Source: a virus. Taken from it: 30,050 bases of DNA. Each line of letters starts with the position of its first letter. Positions within the stretch are counted from its first letter, which is position 1. Position numbers and translations under genes: made by a program. The notes below the pieces were generated by a model that saw only the letters and a list, made by a program, of their open reading frames with translations, was not told the origin of the DNA and did not search any database. Below, piece after piece: positions 303-25,495 of this stretch. Location: IMG/VR virus record IMGVR_UViG_3300028008_000073, positions 1-30,050 of that record; one strand, 5' to 3'.

Positions 303-1358
303 ATGAGTAAGCAAAAACACTACTACCAATTAAGCGACGTTACTAACGAATTATTTAAACTAAGAGAAAAAGGGTTAACTAGAGGTAAAGAAATAGGGTT
401 TGACTTCGACAAGTGCGGTATGTCCGTTAAAAAAGGTTGTACTACTTATATCGCAGGCGCTCCAGCTTCGGGTAAATCGGAGTTTTGGCTAGAGGTATTA
501 GTTAACCTATCTTGTATCTACGGAGATAAGCATATTATATTCACTCCTGAGACGGGAGAAGTACACGAGGTATTTGCGGAGCTATGTCATAAGTACGTTA
601 ATAAACCTTACTTCGGTAAGGACGGGGTAAAAATGACGGAGACGGATAAAGCTCAGTCCGAATACTTTATAGGCGAACACTTTATAGTTATAGACCCGAA
701 AGATGACACTATGTCTTTAGACGAGTATTACGAGATGGTAGATAAGGTAGAAAAGGAATTAGACTGGAAGTTCGCTACTACTACTATAGACCCTTTTAAC
801 GAGGTTAAACACGATTTTAGCGGTAGACAAGATTTATATATAGAGGAGTTATTAGGTAAGTGTAGAAGGAACGCTAGGAAAACGGGTAGACATAACTGTT
901 TGATTACTCACGTTAGAGACCAGCCTATTATAGAAAAAGACGGTAAGAGGTTTTGTCCTATGCCTACTCCTAGAGAGTTCGCAGGTGGTCAAGCTTGGTT
1001 TAGGAAAGGAGAACAAATGATTATCGTTTGGCGACCTCCTTACGGAGTTACTAGAGATAACGGACAAGGAACTTACGAAGCTAACGAAGCTATAATAAGG
1101 ATAGCTAAAGAAAAACCTAAAGGAGCTTCTAAGAAAGGCGATTATACTTTTTTCTACAATAAAGAGATGAACGCTTACTACTGTAAAGACTGGGACGGGG
1201 TAGATATTTACGCAGATAGAACACCTATAAAGTCAAGAGCTGGTAAGCAAGAAACCTTACAAGGTTTAGACGCTAAAGAAGAAGATAATTTTTTTAAGAA
1301 TAAATCTTTCGAAAGAACAACTGACGAAGACGATATATTACAAAACACCCCATTTTAA
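303..1358 (+). CDS. DnaB-like replicative helicase (RecA-fold ATPase)
   Basis: A 351-residue protein with a Walker A loop GAPASGKS at residues 52-59 and a Walker B-like hydrophobic strand ending in Thr-Ile-Asp-Pro at about 160-164. A Thr-His-Val-Arg motif near 202-205 and a Gly-Gly-Gln-Ala-Trp-Phe-Arg-Lys segment near 228-235 match the sensor and arginine-finger regions of DnaB/Twinkle-type helicases. It lacks the N-terminal domain of DnaB (about 450 aa) and no primase motifs are visible, so it is a minimal phage helicase core. It would unwind DNA at the phage replication fork using ATP. It follows the replisome-organizer-like gene and precedes recombination genes. The ATPase fold is clear; the helicase role is by family resemblance and position. 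Confidence 0.75.
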   Translation: MSKQKHYYQLSDVTNELFKLREKGLTRGKEIGFDFDKCGMSVKKGCTTYIAGAPASGKSEFWLEVLVNLSCIYGDKHIIFTPETGEVHEVFAELCHKYVNKPYFGKDGVKMTETDKAQSEYFIGEHFIVIDPKDDTMSLDEYYEMVDKVEKELDWKFATTTIDPFNEVKHDFSGRQDLYIEELLGKCRRNARKTGRHNCLITHVRDQPIIEKDGKRFCPMPTPREFAGGQAWFRKGEQMIIVWRPPYGVTRDNGQGTYEANEAIIRIAKEKPKGASKKGDYTFFYNKEMNAYYCKDWDGVDIYADRTPIKSRAGKQETLQGLDAKEEDNFFKNKSFERTTDEDDILQNTPF

Positions 1359-4921: not shown

Positions 4922-4954
4922 ACCGGACAAGTACCGGACAAGTACCGGACAAGT
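4922..4954. repeat. Three perfect tandem copies of an 11-bp repeat
   Basis: ACCGGACAAGT occurs three times head to tail with no spacer (4922-4932, 4933-4943, 4944-4954). The period of 11 is close to one helical turn, so a protein could bind each copy on the same DNA face, as at iteron-type origins or operators. It lies between two genes, upstream of the gene for a DnaA-domain protein. Whether it is an origin, an operator or a simple tandem duplication is not known. Confidence 0.9.
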
Positions 4955-5022: not shown

Positions 5023-5232
5023 ATGAGTAAAGAACAAGAGATTTTAGAAAAGTACAAGGCATTACATATAGGTGGTGTTAGCGTTTCGTTACCCTCAGTT
5101 GATGATTCTGGAATTATAGCAGTAGCAATATCTGAAATAAACAACGAAATGACAGCACAAGAACTATCCTATTTTATAGCGGGATTCACTGAATGTATAA
5201 AGTACTTAGAGATGCAAAGTAATGAACGCTAA
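5023..5232 (+). CDS. Small hypothetical protein (69 aa)
   Basis: The frame is open from a GTG at 4975, but the ATG at 5023 is the better start: it follows an A-rich leader (AAAATT), whereas the GTG lies inside the inverted repeat at 4970-5001. The 69-residue product has a charged N-terminal helix, a Gly/Ser/Val-rich middle and a helical C-terminal part with Glu-Leu-Ser-Tyr-Phe-Ile-Ala-Gly-Phe. I do not recognise it. Its stop codon lies inside a nested inverted repeat that precedes the MazG/DnaA-like gene. Confidence 0.55.
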   Translation: MSKEQEILEKYKALHIGGVSVSLPSVDDSGIIAVAISEINNEMTAQELSYFIAGFTECIKYLEMQSNER

Positions 5233-5283
5233 CGCCAAAGTGAGAAACGTTTTAATGTTTCTTAATGACCGTTGAAGAGCGTT
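5225..5283. repeat. Nested inverted repeats before the MazG/DnaA-like gene
   Basis: The outer arms AACGCT (5225-5230) and AGCGTT (5278-5283) are perfect complements. Within them AACG (5231-5234) pairs with CGTT (5270-5273), and AGAAAC (5243-5248) with GTTTCT (5257-5262). A short direct repeat CGTTTTAATG occurs at 5248-5257 and 5280-5289. No clean T-run follows, so it may be an operator or cruciform-prone element rather than a terminator. Confidence 0.55.
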
Positions 5284-5310
5284 TTAATGCGAACTAATTA
5301 AATAAAAATT

Positions 5311-6042
5311 ATGAAAAGAAAAGAAATAACAGAATTTAACGAAGCGTTCGGTTGTCCAGCGCCTAAGAAGCCTACTACGGTAGCAAACAGTAAACTTAGA
5401 AGTAAATTAATTATCGAAGAATTAACCGAGTATAACGACGCGGTAAAAGATAACGATATAGTAGAAATAGCAGACGCTATAGGTGATATGCTTTACTTAG
5501 TATTAGGAGCTGCAGTAGAACACGGTATCGAGATAGAACCGGTATTCGACGAAATCCACTTATCTAATATGTCTAAGCTAGACTCTGACGGTAAACCTAT
5601 CTATAGAGAGGACGGTAAAGTACTAAAAGGAGAAAACTACTTTAAGCCGGATATTAAAAAGGTTTTAGTTCACTCTTTAAACTACACCGGGAAGAAGTAC
5701 GTAAAAGACCAAAATATTAAAGAGTTAGACGTAGAAGTAGAGGATTACGTTCATAAGGTTATAGACGTAGTAGCTAATTACTACGATGTAACGGTAAACG
5801 CTTTAGCTGGAGTAAAACGTACTCAACCTCTCGCAATAGCTAGGCATATTATAGCTTATTTATGTTACCAGAGATACGAGTACTACTCTATCTTCGGTAA
5901 AGAGCTTACTAACGTAATTAATAGAGATAGAACTACTTTTATACACGGGAACAAGATTGTAAGAGACGGATTAATATACGATAAGCCTTTAAGGACTGCG
6001 GTAAACGACATAACTAATAACCTTAAAAAAGAAATAAGTTAA
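5311..6042 (+). CDS. MazG-like NTP pyrophosphohydrolase fused to a DnaA domain IV-like DNA-binding domain
   Basis: A 243-residue two-domain protein. Residues 1-115 fit the all-alpha NTP pyrophosphohydrolase (MazG/HisE-like) family: Glu-Glu-x-x-Glu at 36-40, then Glu-x-x-Asp at 52-55 with Asp 59, followed by a Ser-Asn-Met-Ser-Lys segment (85-89) and a Gly-Lys-Val-Leu-Lys-Gly segment (102-107) typical of phage members. These enzymes hydrolyse NTPs or dNTPs to NMP plus pyrophosphate using Mg. Residues about 145-218 resemble DnaA domain IV, the DnaA-box reader: Val-Lys-Arg-Thr-Gln-Pro..Ala-Arg-His-Ile at 168-180 and Arg-Asp-Arg-Thr-Thr-Phe-Ile-His at 205-212, close to the DnaA signature RDHTTVLH. 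No AAA+ ATPase domain is present. The fusion could couple nucleotide control to origin or operator binding. Confidence 0.75.
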   Translation: MKRKEITEFNEAFGCPAPKKPTTVANSKLRSKLIIEELTEYNDAVKDNDIVEIADAIGDMLYLVLGAAVEHGIEIEPVFDEIHLSNMSKLDSDGKPIYREDGKVLKGENYFKPDIKKVLVHSLNYTGKKYVKDQNIKELDVEVEDYVHKVIDVVANYYDVTVNALAGVKRTQPLAIARHIIAYLCYQRYEYYSIFGKELTNVINRDRTTFIHGNKIVRDGLIYDKPLRTAVNDITNNLKKEIS

Positions 6043-6104: not shown

Positions 6105-6335
6105 ATGAAAGTACAAGATTTAAGAAACGAACTAAGTAACGGAGTAACAGACTTCGCATTTATCAAAAAAGACGGAACAGTAAGAGTAGCTCAAGGAACT
6201 ACAAACTTGGCTTTTGTGCCAGTAGAGAAGCACCCTAAAGGAGGTAAAGCATCTGAAAAAGTATTAGCTTACTTCGATTTAGAAAAAGATAACTGGAGAT
6301 GTCTATCGGTTAACACGGAATTTGTAACAGCTTAA
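6105..6335 (+). CDS. SH3 beta-barrel fold phage protein (DUF2693-like)
   Basis: A 76-residue protein with the pattern Phe-x-x-Ile-Lys-Lys-Asp-Gly-Thr-Val-Arg (19-27), then Thr-Thr-Asn (32-34), then a Tyr-Phe-Asp-Leu-Glu-Lys-Asp-x-Trp-Arg segment near the end. This matches the small SH3-like beta-barrel proteins common in Bacteroidota phages and mobile elements. Their biochemical role is not established. It is a single-gene unit with its own TATATTTG box upstream and a terminator eight bases after the stop, which suggests strong independent expression. Confidence 0.65.
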   Translation: MKVQDLRNELSNGVTDFAFIKKDGTVRVAQGTTNLAFVPVEKHPKGGKASEKVLAYFDLEKDNWRCLSVNTEFVTA

Positions 6336-6603: not shown

Positions 6604-7968
6604 ATGAATTACGAAGAATTTTTAAAAGGTAAACGTCATTACATAGGTAATAGTGGGTTCGAACCTAACTATATACCTAATATGGCTTTTGATTTCCAGA
6701 AGGAAGTAATTACCAGAGCAGTTAAAAAGGGTCGTATGGCTGTTTTTGCTGACACCGGGCTAGGTAAAACTTTAATGCAGATTTCAATAGCTCAAAACGT
6801 AGTAAACCACACGCAAGGAAAAGTATTAATATTAACTCCTTTAGCTGTAGCTTTTCAGTTTATTATTGAAGCTGAGAAAATGGGTATAACAGATATTGAA
6901 TACTCTAAAGACGGAAGTCATAGTAAAAGTATAGTAATATCTAACTACGAGAGACTTCACTATTTCGATAGTAAAGACTTTCAAGGAGTAGTACTAGATG
7001 AGTCGTCAATACTTAAAAACTTTGACGGTAAGATTAAGAATCAAGTAACTAGCTTTGTAAAGAAAATATCTTATAGGTTTTTATCAACCGCTACACCTTC
7101 TCCTAATGATTTTATAGAGTTAGGTACAAGTTCTGAAGCTTTAGGATATATGGGATATATGGATATGCTAGGTAAGTTTTTTAAGAATAATAATAGTAGC
7201 GTAGCAAAGCAGACTAGGAATATCGGAGAGAAGTACTATTTAAAACCACACGCGGAGACGGAGTTTTTTGCTTGGGTTAATCAATGGAGCGTAATGATTA
7301 AAATGCCTAGCGATTTAGGATTTAATAACGATAGATATAAGCTCCCTGAGTTAATAATAAATAAACACGTAGTAGACAACTTGTCTTTAGTAGGGTTAAA
7401 CGACCAGTCTCAAATGTTTCCAAAAGAGGCTAAGACTTTTCAAGAAATAAGACTAGAGCAAAAGCAGACCATAAAAGAAAGATGCGAAAAGGCTGTAGAA
7501 TTAGCGAAAGATAAAACATCTGTATACTGGGTTAACTTAAACGAAGAAAGTAGTTTAATAAATGAGCTAGACCCGGAAGCTGTAGAGATTAAGGGTAGTA
7601 TGAATATTGATAAAAAAGAGGATATACTATTAAGATTTGCTAAAGGAGAAATAAAAAGGATTATAACAAAGGCTAAGATGACTGGAATGGGTTTAAATTG
7701 GCAACATTGTAACCACTCTGTATTTTTCCCTACTTACTCTTATGAACAGTATTACCAAGCTATTAGACGTTTTTGGAGGTTCGGACAAAAGAATAACGTA
7801 GTTATAGATGTAGTTACTTCTGGAGGTCAAAAAAGAGTAATGAAAGCTCTAGAACAGAAAACAGAAAAAGCTATACAACTTTATGAGAATTTAACAAAGA
7901 ATGTAAACAGTAATTTTATTGACGATAAAAAAGAATTTAAAAACGAAATCATTAAACCAAAATTTTAA
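6604..7968 (+). CDS. SNF2/DEAD-like superfamily 2 helicase
   Basis: A 454-residue SF2 ATPase with all core motifs: Walker A Ala-Asp-Thr-Gly-Leu-Gly-Lys-Thr at 49-56, motif Ia near Leu-Thr-Pro-Leu (77-80), motif II Leu-Asp-Glu-Ser at 131-134, motif III Ser-Thr-Ala-Thr-Pro-Ser-Pro-Asn-Asp-Phe at 161-170, motif V Met-Thr-Gly-Met-Gly-Leu-Asn-Trp near 359-366, and motif VI Gln-Ala-Ile-Arg-Arg-Phe-Trp-Arg-Phe-Gly-Gln at 385-395. No nuclease or methyltransferase domain is attached. It should move along or remodel double-stranded DNA using ATP. It stands directly before a DNA methyltransferase gene (four bases apart), a pairing that recalls split restriction-modification or modification-only systems. 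Confidence 0.85.
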   Translation: MNYEEFLKGKRHYIGNSGFEPNYIPNMAFDFQKEVITRAVKKGRMAVFADTGLGKTLMQISIAQNVVNHTQGKVLILTPLAVAFQFIIEAEKMGITDIEYSKDGSHSKSIVISNYERLHYFDSKDFQGVVLDESSILKNFDGKIKNQVTSFVKKISYRFLSTATPSPNDFIELGTSSEALGYMGYMDMLGKFFKNNNSSVAKQTRNIGEKYYLKPHAETEFFAWVNQWSVMIKMPSDLGFNNDRYKLPELIINKHVVDNLSLVGLNDQSQMFPKEAKTFQEIRLEQKQTIKERCEKAVELAKDKTSVYWVNLNEESSLINELDPEAVEIKGSMNIDKKEDILLRFAKGEIKRIITKAKMTGMGLNWQHCNHSVFFPTYSYEQYYQAIRRFWRFGQKNNVVIDVVTSGGQKRVMKALEQKTEKAIQLYENLTKNVNSNFIDDKKEFKNEIIKPKF

Positions 7969-7972
7969 CATT

Positions 7973-8992
7973 ATGAACAAAGTAAAAGACCAATTAGTAA
8001 CAGACAACTACGCAATCTATAATAGTGACTGTATGTATGTTTTACCAACTTTAGAAGATGAATCAATAGACTTATCTGTTTATTCTCCTCCTTTCGCTGG
8101 ACTGTATAATTACTCATCTAGTGAGAATGATTTTTCTAACTGTGAAAGTAAAGAGCAATTTTTAGAGCAGTACGAGTACTTAGTGGAGCAAGTTGCAAGA
8201 GTAACAAAACCGGGTAGAATAACTGCGGTACATTGTACGGACGTTTTTGATAACACGTGTAGACTATGGGACTTTCCTAGTGAGATAATTAAAATACATC
8301 AGAAGTACGGTTTTGAATACCGTAATAGGATTACAATATGGAAAGAACCTTTAAAAGTTCGTATGCGTACTATGGTCCAATCTTTAATGCACAAATTTAT
8401 AGTTGAGGACTCTACAAGATGTTTTACCGCTATGCCTGATTACGTTTTAGTATTCACTAAGAAAGGAGAAAACCAAGTTCCGGTAACTCATTCAAAAGGA
8501 TTATCTAAATACTTTGGAGCTACTCCGATATTGCCTAATATCTTACAAGCTTGGAATAATGCTAATAAATCAGATTTAAACGAGGCTCAATTATGGGACC
8601 ACTTAAATAGAGAGTTTAAGAACCACGAAGACCCTAAGAGTAATAAGTTATCGCACTACATCTGGCAGAGGTATGCGTCTTCTGTATGGGACGATATTAG
8701 AATAGATAACGTATTACCTTTTAGAGACTCTAGAGAAGAGGACGACGAGAAACACGTACACCCTTTACAGTTAGATGTTATTGATAGAATTGTAGAACTA
8801 TACTCTAATCCCGGAGAAGTTGTATTTACTCCTTTTATGGGTGTAGGTTCAGAGGTTTACAGTCCAGTATCTTTAGGACGTAAAGCTATCGGTATTGAGT
8901 TAAAAGATTCGTATTTTAAACAAGCTAAGATAAACTTAGACTTAGCCGACCAAAGATTTAAAGACGAGGTTAAACAAGAAACTTTATTTTAA
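7973..8992 (+). CDS. DNA methyltransferase, beta class (N4-cytosine or N6-adenine)
   Basis: The ATG at 7973 is preferred to an upstream ATG at 7919, because the upstream one lies inside the helicase gene and adds residues with no family similarity; it gives 339 residues. Motif IV is Ser-Pro-Pro-Phe at 38-41 near the N terminus, and motif I (Phe-Thr-Pro-Phe-Met-Gly-Val-Gly-Ser) is at 285-293 near the C terminus, the circular order of beta-class enzymes. The segment Lys-His-Val-His-Pro-Leu-Gln at 260-266 matches the conserved region before motif I. SPPF/SPPY is common in N4-cytosine methyltransferases, though not exclusive to them. It would transfer a methyl group from S-adenosylmethionine to phage or host DNA. 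The usual Asp of DPF is Thr here. Target site unknown. Confidence 0.85.
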   Translation: MNKVKDQLVTDNYAIYNSDCMYVLPTLEDESIDLSVYSPPFAGLYNYSSSENDFSNCESKEQFLEQYEYLVEQVARVTKPGRITAVHCTDVFDNTCRLWDFPSEIIKIHQKYGFEYRNRITIWKEPLKVRMRTMVQSLMHKFIVEDSTRCFTAMPDYVLVFTKKGENQVPVTHSKGLSKYFGATPILPNILQAWNNANKSDLNEAQLWDHLNREFKNHEDPKSNKLSHYIWQRYASSVWDDIRIDNVLPFRDSREEDDEKHVHPLQLDVIDRIVELYSNPGEVVFTPFMGVGSEVYSPVSLGRKAIGIELKDSYFKQAKINLDLADQRFKDEVKQETLF

Positions 8993-12379: not shown

Positions 12380-12406
12380 GAAATAAAAACGATTAAATAA
12401 ATAATT

Positions 12407-12438
12407 AAAAGAGGGGTTAACAGCTCCTCTTTTTTTTT
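12407..12438 (+). terminator. Rho-independent terminator after terL
   Basis: AAAAGAGGGG (12407-12416) pairs with the bases from 12424 on (one G-T pair) around a TTAACAG loop, followed by T residues to 12438. The loop is almost the same as that of the terminator at 25199-25227 (TTAATAG). Confidence 0.85.
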
Positions 12439-12570
12439 AAGTCTGATTAGTAAAATCGTAAAAATATATCTAAAAGCTATACAAACTAAATACCGGAGTA
12501 AACTACTTAAACCTATCTAAACTCATCTCATCTTTAAAAGCTAACTACTTAAGTATTAGCTAGTTTAATC

Positions 12571-12620
12571 CTTTCGAACCCTTAGAAACCCTTTCGAACC
12601 CTTAGAAACCCTTTCGAACC
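12571..12620. repeat. 10-bp iterons, locus A
   Basis: Five 10-bp units follow in phase: CTTTCGAACC, CTTAGAAACC, CTTTCGAACC, CTTAGAAACC, CTTTCGAACC. The reverse complement of the main unit, GGTTCGAAAG, also occurs in locus B at 25108-25117, and both continue into GATTA (locus A on the opposite strand). Helical-turn spacing suggests cooperative protein binding. There are no unique spacers, so it is not a CRISPR array. Confidence 0.85.
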
Positions 12621-12625
12621 GTATA

Positions 12626-12668
12626 GGAACGGTTTACAAATAGAAATAGAATAGAATATAATTTAATA
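12626..12668. repeat. Segment shared with the second gene-free region
   Basis: GGAACGGTTTACAAAT (12626-12641) recurs exactly at 25124-25139 in the same orientation, and TAGAATATAATTTAATA (12652-12668) recurs exactly at 25181-25197. The pieces are AT-rich apart from the GGAACGG start. Together with the iterons they define a two-copy dispersed element whose spacing differs between copies. Confidence 0.85.
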
Positions 12669-12909
12669 CTAATCTAAGTTAATTTAAGTGATAGTTACGC
12701 GATAACCAGACCGGACTACGTCCTTACCGACTACGATTTTTAAAATAAGCGATTTAAGAGACTTTAAAAGACCTAGATAATAGATAATACTATTTTAGTT
12801 TAAAAGTTAGTTAGAACGGCTTAAAAGTACCTTAGAGAGGGTTTATTTATTTAAAGTTAAGAGAGGGTTTTAGCTTTTAGTTCTAAATAAGTATTACTAT
12901 CTTTATCCT

Positions 12910-25087: not shown

Positions 25088-25139
25088 GGTTCGGAACGGT
25101 TCGGAAGGGTTCGAAAGGATTACGGAACGGTTTACAAAT
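25088..25139. repeat. 10-bp iterons, locus B, with shared segment
   Basis: GGTTCGGAAC, GGTTCGGAAG and GGTTCGAAAG follow in phase (25088-25117), then GATTACGGAAC and GGTTTACAAAT. The third unit is the exact reverse complement of the locus A unit (12571). GGAACGGTTTACAAAT (25124-25139) is identical to 12626-12641, and TAGAATATAATTTAATA at 25181-25197 matches 12652-12668. The whole gap at 25066-25249 holds no gene. Likely a site recognised by one protein at two loci. Confidence 0.85.
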
Positions 25140-25249: not shown

Positions 25250-25495
25250 ATGGAAGAGAAAAAGACTAAAAGAAGTTATAAGAAGCGTTCTAAGGAACTT
25301 TCAGAAGAAAGTCAATTGAATATTAATAAAGAAGAAGAAAAAGCCTTAAAACCTAAGAAATGGGTGTTTAAGAACGTAAATAGAAAGATACTCTTAGCTG
25401 GTTCTGTAATTTCTAACTACGACTTAGAAAATAACCAAGCTTTAGCGGAAATCTTAATATCTAAAGGTTTAGGTAATCTTATATGCTTCGAGTAA
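25250..25495 (+). CDS. Hypothetical protein (81 aa)
   Basis: An 81-residue protein: a highly basic and charged first 30 residues (Lys-Lys-Arg-Ser-Tyr-Lys-Lys-Arg), then a compact helical part with Leu-Leu-Ala-Gly-Ser-Val-Ile-Ser near 48-55. No domain recognised. It starts after the terminator at 25199-25227 and overlaps the next gene by 13 bases, so the two are coupled. Whether it belongs to the head module or to the glycan genes is not clear. Confidence 0.55.
   Translation: MEEKKTKRSYKKRSKELSEESQLNINKEEEKALKPKKWVFKNVNRKILLAGSVISNYDLENNQALAEILISKGLGNLICFE

Follow-up and report, generated by a model that had tools for sequence, protein, structure and literature searches.

Enzymes of the DR2231 type cleave dUTP, and a family relationship links MazG with the all-alpha dimeric dUTPases (PMC5122711). 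The preferred substrates of a cyanophage MazG are dGTP and dCTP, with (p)ppGpp left untouched (PMC6850273), and dimeric phage dUTPases have a regulatory role that is exerted by binding the Stl repressor (PMC6770826). On the DNA-binding side, domain IV of DnaA recognizes the DnaA box through R399, which reads the minor groove, and through a helix starting at residue 434, which reads the major groove (PMC5742627). A domain of this type has also been described in another enzyme: TnpA_REP HuH endonucleases of subgroup 2.1.2 carry a C-terminal Bac_DnaA_C domain, and the repeats flanking them are unlike DnaA boxes (PMC6006769). Phages frequently encode proteins that consist of DnaA domain IV only (DnaA-IV-only proteins), and no paper on the function of these proteins was found in the literature searched.

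The sequence analyzed here, referred to below as the window, is a complete IMG/VR virus record of 30,050 bases. Its plus strand carries a coding sequence at 5311-6042 (start ATG) for a protein of 243 aa, which an earlier note, made from the sequence alone, had described as a MazG-like pyrophosphohydrolase fused to a DnaA domain IV-like DNA reader, with no AAA+ domain. A Pfam scan of the full-length protein bore out this description: PF01503 matched residues 7-86 (1.7e-16; 60.8 bits against a cut-off of 21.3), PF03819 matched residues 32-82 (5.5e-05; 23.8 bits against a cut-off of 22), and PF08299 matched residues 148-215 (2.9e-11; 43.7 bits against a cut-off of 31.5). Each half scanned alone, as the note had proposed, gave the same domain. 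No AAA+ profile matched the 243-aa protein, and the fusion, lacking the AAA+ domain III that defines a DnaA initiator, is therefore not a DnaA. An assembly artefact or a frameshift join is ruled out by the recurrence of the full-length fusion in 14 further viral contigs at 44-99% identity. A MazG-type pyrophosphohydrolase and a DnaA domain IV are thus genuinely joined in one protein. The fusion is rare, and the novelty lies in the combination, both domains being well known in themselves. The note knew of no characterized example, and likewise we found no description of one in the literature searched, subscription papers being outside its reach.

The N-terminal domain (residues 7-86; 5329-5568, plus strand) belongs to the all-alpha NTP pyrophosphohydrolases of the PRA-PH/MazG class. 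The nearest solved structures by sequence are 3nl9 and Deinococcus DR2231, and in standalone relatives the homology reaches to about residue 119. The catalytic signature had been read as EExxE...ExxD. Comparison with 79 standalone relatives upheld EExxE (E36, E37 and E40) and D55, and did not uphold E52: E36, E37, E40 and D59 are each present in 79/79 relatives and D55 in 74/79. Because E52 is kept in only 44/79, the signature of this subfamily is better written EExxE...DxxxD, comprising E36, E37, E40, D55 and D59 (5416-5487, plus strand). These carboxylates are intact in every fusion except the L045 lineage. The N-terminal half very probably functions as a dNTP pyrophosphohydrolase of the all-alpha DR2231/phage-MazG type, and the enzyme is probably active in most fusion lineages.

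Between the domains lies a linker (residues 119-147; 5665-5751, plus strand), which is followed by DnaA domain IV (PF08299, residues 148-215; 5752-5955, plus strand), whose fold extends to about residue 243. An AlphaFold model of the full-length protein, built from a shallow alignment of nine close relatives, reached a pLDDT of 40 and was not used. Residues 136-243, modelled from 46 aligned sequences, reached a mean pLDDT of 94.8. The nearest solved structure to this half by sequence is DnaA domain IV, and the credible PDB matches of the model in Foldseek were DnaA domain IV structures only (3pvp, 1j1v, 1l8q, 8btg and 3r8f). The Mycobacterium tuberculosis DnaA-DBD with DNA (3pvp) matched at TM 0.78 and rmsd 1.8, and E. 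coli domain IV bound to a DnaA box (1j1v) at TM 0.75; the next match after these structures had an E above 1. From a confident model that matches DnaA domain IV alone, it follows that the helix-turn-helix expected by the note is predicted to be present in the fusion.

Alignment placed most DNA-contact residues of DnaA in the fusion, with E. coli residue numbers derived from the 1j1v sequence: R170 corresponds to R399, R178 to R407, D206 to D433, T208 to T435, T209 to T436 and H212 to H439. One alignment that mixed MazG-only and DnaA-only rows was discarded, as MAFFT had placed the DnaA rows on the MazG half. R170 (5818-5820, plus strand), the equivalent of the minor-groove contact with the DnaA box, is invariant in intact fusions, and so are the equivalents of R407, D433 and H439, the most diverged fusions L280 and L284 included. 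The recognition-helix signature RDRTTFIH noticed earlier is indeed present at residues 205-212 (5923-5946, plus strand), and D206, R207, T208 and H212 are invariant among intact fusions. R207 replaces E. coli H434, and the alignment also places a 3-residue insertion ahead of the recognition helix. All 11 Flavobacteriaceae DnaAs sampled carry the host-type signature RDHATVLH, whereas the fusions carry RDRT[ST]FIH. The C-terminal half, by its sequence and predicted structure, is a genuine reader of the DnaA type whose recognition surface is altered; therefore, the DnaA box cannot be assumed to be its site. Its fold and residue conservation suggest that the fusion binds DNA sequence-specifically. 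The alternative that this domain is a protein-protein module, for example for the phage ATPase or for host DnaA or DnaB, would suit its weak basic charge (net +2) and the drift of the recognition helix in L280 and L284, which reads LDRVT...H with one extra residue in the helix. Against it, the residues kept across the fusions are precisely the DNA-contact equivalents of R399, R407, D433 and H439, and of all the readings considered we give this one the least credence.

The note had further suggested that the phage could titrate host initiation, or mark its own origin, through DnaA boxes. As a host decoy, the fusion would compete for or titrate DnaA boxes and so stop initiation on the host chromosome; the retained DnaA-IV fold and contact residues would allow this, and a protein without AAA+ could block an origin without opening it. 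The box counts lend this no support. TTWTNCACA occurred once in the 30 kb window; ten fusion contigs together had 4 occurrences, compared with 13 of the reversed pattern taken as control, and TTATCCACA with at most one mismatch occurred 3 times against 3.85 expected. Phage contigs are thus not enriched in DnaA boxes, although a purely host-directed decoy would need none there. The repeats at 4922-4954, which the note had offered as binding sites, do exist, as three perfect copies of 11 nt with the core CCGGACAAG. They are absent 5' of the gene in L001 despite a 99% identical protein, and the core was not found in the other fusion contigs scanned, though it recurs in the fragment L010, whose sequence is almost that of the window. 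Not being conserved with the gene, these repeats were rejected as the fusion's target. Titration of host initiation, or marking of the phage origin, through DnaA boxes is accordingly unsupported, since the boxes are not enriched and the repeats are not conserved with the gene. The changed recognition helix, with H434 replaced by arginine in every fusion and three residues inserted ahead of the helix, argues against a decoy acting solely on the host chromosome, and we regard host titration as very unlikely.

Other non-coding features of the window were recorded. Intergenic repeat arrays phased at 10 bp lie at 12566-12632 (CCTTTCGAACCCTTAGAAAC, 2.5 copies) and 25088-25132 (GGTTCGGAAC, 4.4 copies); both are followed by an AT-rich stretch, and the two are inverted relative to each other. 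No array-like cluster arose in 300 shuffles of the window. Similar arrays occupy matching positions, after the terminase and before the gene at 25250, in G003, G008 and many other contigs, and are degenerate in contig G010. The arrays are candidates for an origin, a packaging site or an operator. As targets of the fusion, those at 12570 and 25088 were set aside: although conserved in the phage group, they bear no resemblance to DnaA boxes. The array-bearing records found without a fusion are apparently fragments that stop short of the early region. Past the terminase gene, a non-coding stretch of about 500 nt (12400-12909), which includes ACCGGACTACGTCCTTACCGACTACGATTTTTAAAA and TAATAGATAATACTATTTTA, is conserved in relatives with proteins no more than about 50-90% alike. 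A hairpin lies directly 5' of the fusion gene (5227-5294; in L001, just upstream of 5001), and its stem, GAAAC/GTTTC in the window and GTAGA/TCTAC in L001, differs with pairing kept. The L001 form folded better than 200/200 shuffles (z -3.8), and the window form was less clear (z -1.7). Rfam at its gathering threshold gave no match in the window.

We then assessed how widely the fusion is distributed. Among 2.9 million viral contigs, the full fusion was found in the 14 further contigs (L001-L009, L044-L046, L280 and L284), and fragments of it in L010 and L011. The L001-L009 proteins are 68-99% identical to the window protein, and L044-L046 share identical DNA at the locus. Neither of two queries had a match covering 80% of the protein in 50,697 phage records, and no such match was found in 72,556 plasmids. 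With the C-terminal half as query against 349 Flavobacteriaceae genomes, nothing fusion-like appeared among the matches listed, best first; these were frames of the size of host DnaA, in nearly every case about 475-510 aa, scoring no more than 33 bits, compared with 154 bits for the diverged G010 fusion. Of the 80 closest viral MazG matches, 79 were standalone and the remaining one was a fusion already found, and none of 80 viral DnaA-IV loci carried a MazG, many of them being short proteins without AAA+. When genome contigs were scanned with the C-terminal half, no relative emerged, and another scan gave standalone MazG only, mostly from Flavobacteriales. Weak C-terminal matches in faecal 'phage' scaffolds proved to be complete DnaA genes. 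Phylogenetic analysis placed the fusions in one group (96/97 support; 99% of bootstrap trees), with L280 and L284 outermost and L045 at the base of the remainder, in a tree that comes from a short alignment and has many other forks poorly resolved. This distribution and the single tree group suggest that the fusion apparently arose once, in one phage group. Among cellular MazG proteins, the closest relatives come overwhelmingly from flavobacteria; this agrees with marine Flavobacteria as the probable hosts of the fusion phages without proving it.

The two halves of the fusion, judged by the sequences of its relatives, behave as modules. L044-L046 (contig G010) have an open frame in which E36, E37, E40, D55, D59, K89 and K103 have become F, D, G, H, S, F and A; the pyrophosphohydrolase is no longer detected by Pfam, and PF08299 is still above its cut-off. 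In the tree this lineage has intact enzymes on either side, which marks the loss of the active site as secondary. About 1.5 kb downstream of the fusion, beside a thymidylate synthase gene (thyA, L045:6056-6835), the contig encodes a separate MazG of 106 aa whose motif is intact (L045:6848-7168). As an observation in its own right, the stretch L045:5653-7168, which follows the pseudoenzyme fusion with a DUF6378 protein, thymidylate synthase and the standalone MazG, forms a nucleotide-metabolism cassette not seen in the window. No MazG match other than the fusion was present in G001, G003 or G008, all of which carry intact fusions, and in the window the fusion was the sole match to a custom profile able to detect the standalone MazG of G010. 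An intact fusion without a second MazG, and a dead fusion with one, hint at complementarity; this is suggestive only, because the lineages are few and the contigs possibly incomplete.

The relative L009 is a natural mosaic. Its first approximately 115 codons match L006 (dS 0.32, against 0.78 to L005) and the remainder matches L005 (dS 0.33, against 1.21 to L006), with sliding identity to these two switching at codons 101-130, that is, at the linker. In all pairs compared, dN was far below dS in both halves, and both halves are therefore under purifying selection. The diverged fusions at L280:6357-7040 and L284:13623-14306 present the reverse of the G010 state, with the MazG half intact and the DnaA reader drifted. 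Distant relatives that share the RecA/DnaB-type ATPase gene (window 303-1358) have a DnaA-IV-only protein of about 140-190 aa instead (L282, L286, L288, L299, L300, L302 and others), usually no more than a few kb from the ATPase gene, and L282 has a separate MazG besides.

These observations bear on a reading in which the enzyme is what matters and domain IV serves only to park it at the replication origin of the phage or host, where it would remove dUTP or other unwanted dNTPs beside the fork. Active-site residues that only one fusion lineage has lost, a MazG half as constrained as the DNA-binding half, DR2231 as nearest solved relative, and the thyA neighbour of the separate G010 MazG, a pointer to pyrimidine or dUTP metabolism, would all fit such targeted sanitation. 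However, G010 retains a fusion whose enzyme is dead, so the presumed parking module must be useful without the enzyme, and a freely diffusing pool of small molecules gains little from local hydrolysis. We consider this reading unlikely.

The genomic context is that of an early region. In the window, genes for a primase/helicase-like ATPase, an exonuclease, a RusA-like resolvase and small proteins precede the fusion; those for WYL_2, a DEAD-box helicase, a methyltransferase, an HNH endonuclease, an endolysin and the terminase follow, with the portal further on. This order is largely common to relatives. The next gene (6105-6335, plus strand) encodes a WYL_2 (PF10902) Sm-like SH3 protein, which stands 3' of the fusion in several relatives too. 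The DEAD-box helicase and DNA methyltransferase genes (6604-8992) are matched in L036 at 97% identity and not in most other relatives, as if the pair were exchanged like a cassette. Gene 36 of Tenacibaculum phage Gundel_1, which encodes a DnaA-IV-only protein, has NinB on one side and, directly after it, two annotated replication proteins on the other. Such neighbours support a replication role for the fusion without showing one, the region also holding unrelated genes.

Taken together, the evidence leads us to lean, without great firmness, towards the fusion being a site-directed phage replication or transcription factor, a two-module early-region protein in which DnaA-IV readers dimerized through MazG act on the phage's own sites. 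By analogy with the dimeric dUTPases related to MazG (PMC5122711), the MazG half would supply a dimeric scaffold, and the C-terminal half would supply a DnaA-IV helix-turn-helix without the AAA+ motor. A dimer with two DnaA-type readers could then bind paired, phage-specific sites, the likeliest target being the phage's own origin or operator rather than host DnaA boxes. DNA binding would be the part retained when the enzyme decays, and the enzyme would serve for nucleotide clean-up and possibly for nucleotide-dependent control of binding. The domains, the predicted C-terminal fold, the conservation of catalytic and DNA-contact residues, purifying selection, the apparent single origin and the loss of the G010 active site are directly supported; dimerization, enzyme activity, the DNA target and the link to replication are inferred. 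A possible but doubtful extension is a nucleotide-sensing switch, in which binding of a dNTP substrate controls the grip of the reader pair on a phage origin or operator; the G010 enzyme would then be a pseudoenzyme scaffold, with catalysis left to the second gene. If this were so, phage replication or early transcription would be tuned directly by the dNTP pool. As a site-directed factor, the fusion would be a nucleotide-pool enzyme equipped with a site-specific DNA-binding domain that descends from a replication initiator. The fusion clade, in which a dead-enzyme version and a domain-swap mosaic occur naturally, offers ready-made contrasts for studying the function of DnaA-IV proteins.

Compared with known systems, the N-terminal half belongs to the family of DR2231 and phage MazG (PF01503/PF03819; phrog_671), and shares with standalone phage and flavobacterial proteins the EExxE...D motif, the length and a C-terminal REDGKxLKGxxxFxPD block. 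These relatives differ from the fusion in having no DnaA domain: nearly all of the closest viral ones are standalone, at about 120-180 aa as a rule, as are the cellular ones examined. Dimeric phage dUTPases act via a repressor protein, whereas the fusion enzyme has its own DNA-binding domain. Phage DnaA-IV-only proteins, such as Gundel_1 gene 36 and the BFVD 'DnaA C-terminal' proteins of uncultured Caudovirales, have the same fold, are phage-encoded, lack AAA+ and often lie in a replication region. In contrast to the fusions, they have no pyrophosphohydrolase and carry the usual DH at the recognition helix instead of RDR, and the fusions form their tree group outside them. Cellular DnaA shares the domain IV helix-turn-helix and the residues equivalent to R399, R407, D433 and H439; the fusion has an altered recognition helix and is without domains I-III, hence without ATP-driven origin opening. 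TnpA_REP provides a precedent for DnaA-IV joined to an unrelated enzyme (PMC6006769), although that enzyme is a transposon single-strand DNA endonuclease and not a nucleotide pyrophosphohydrolase.
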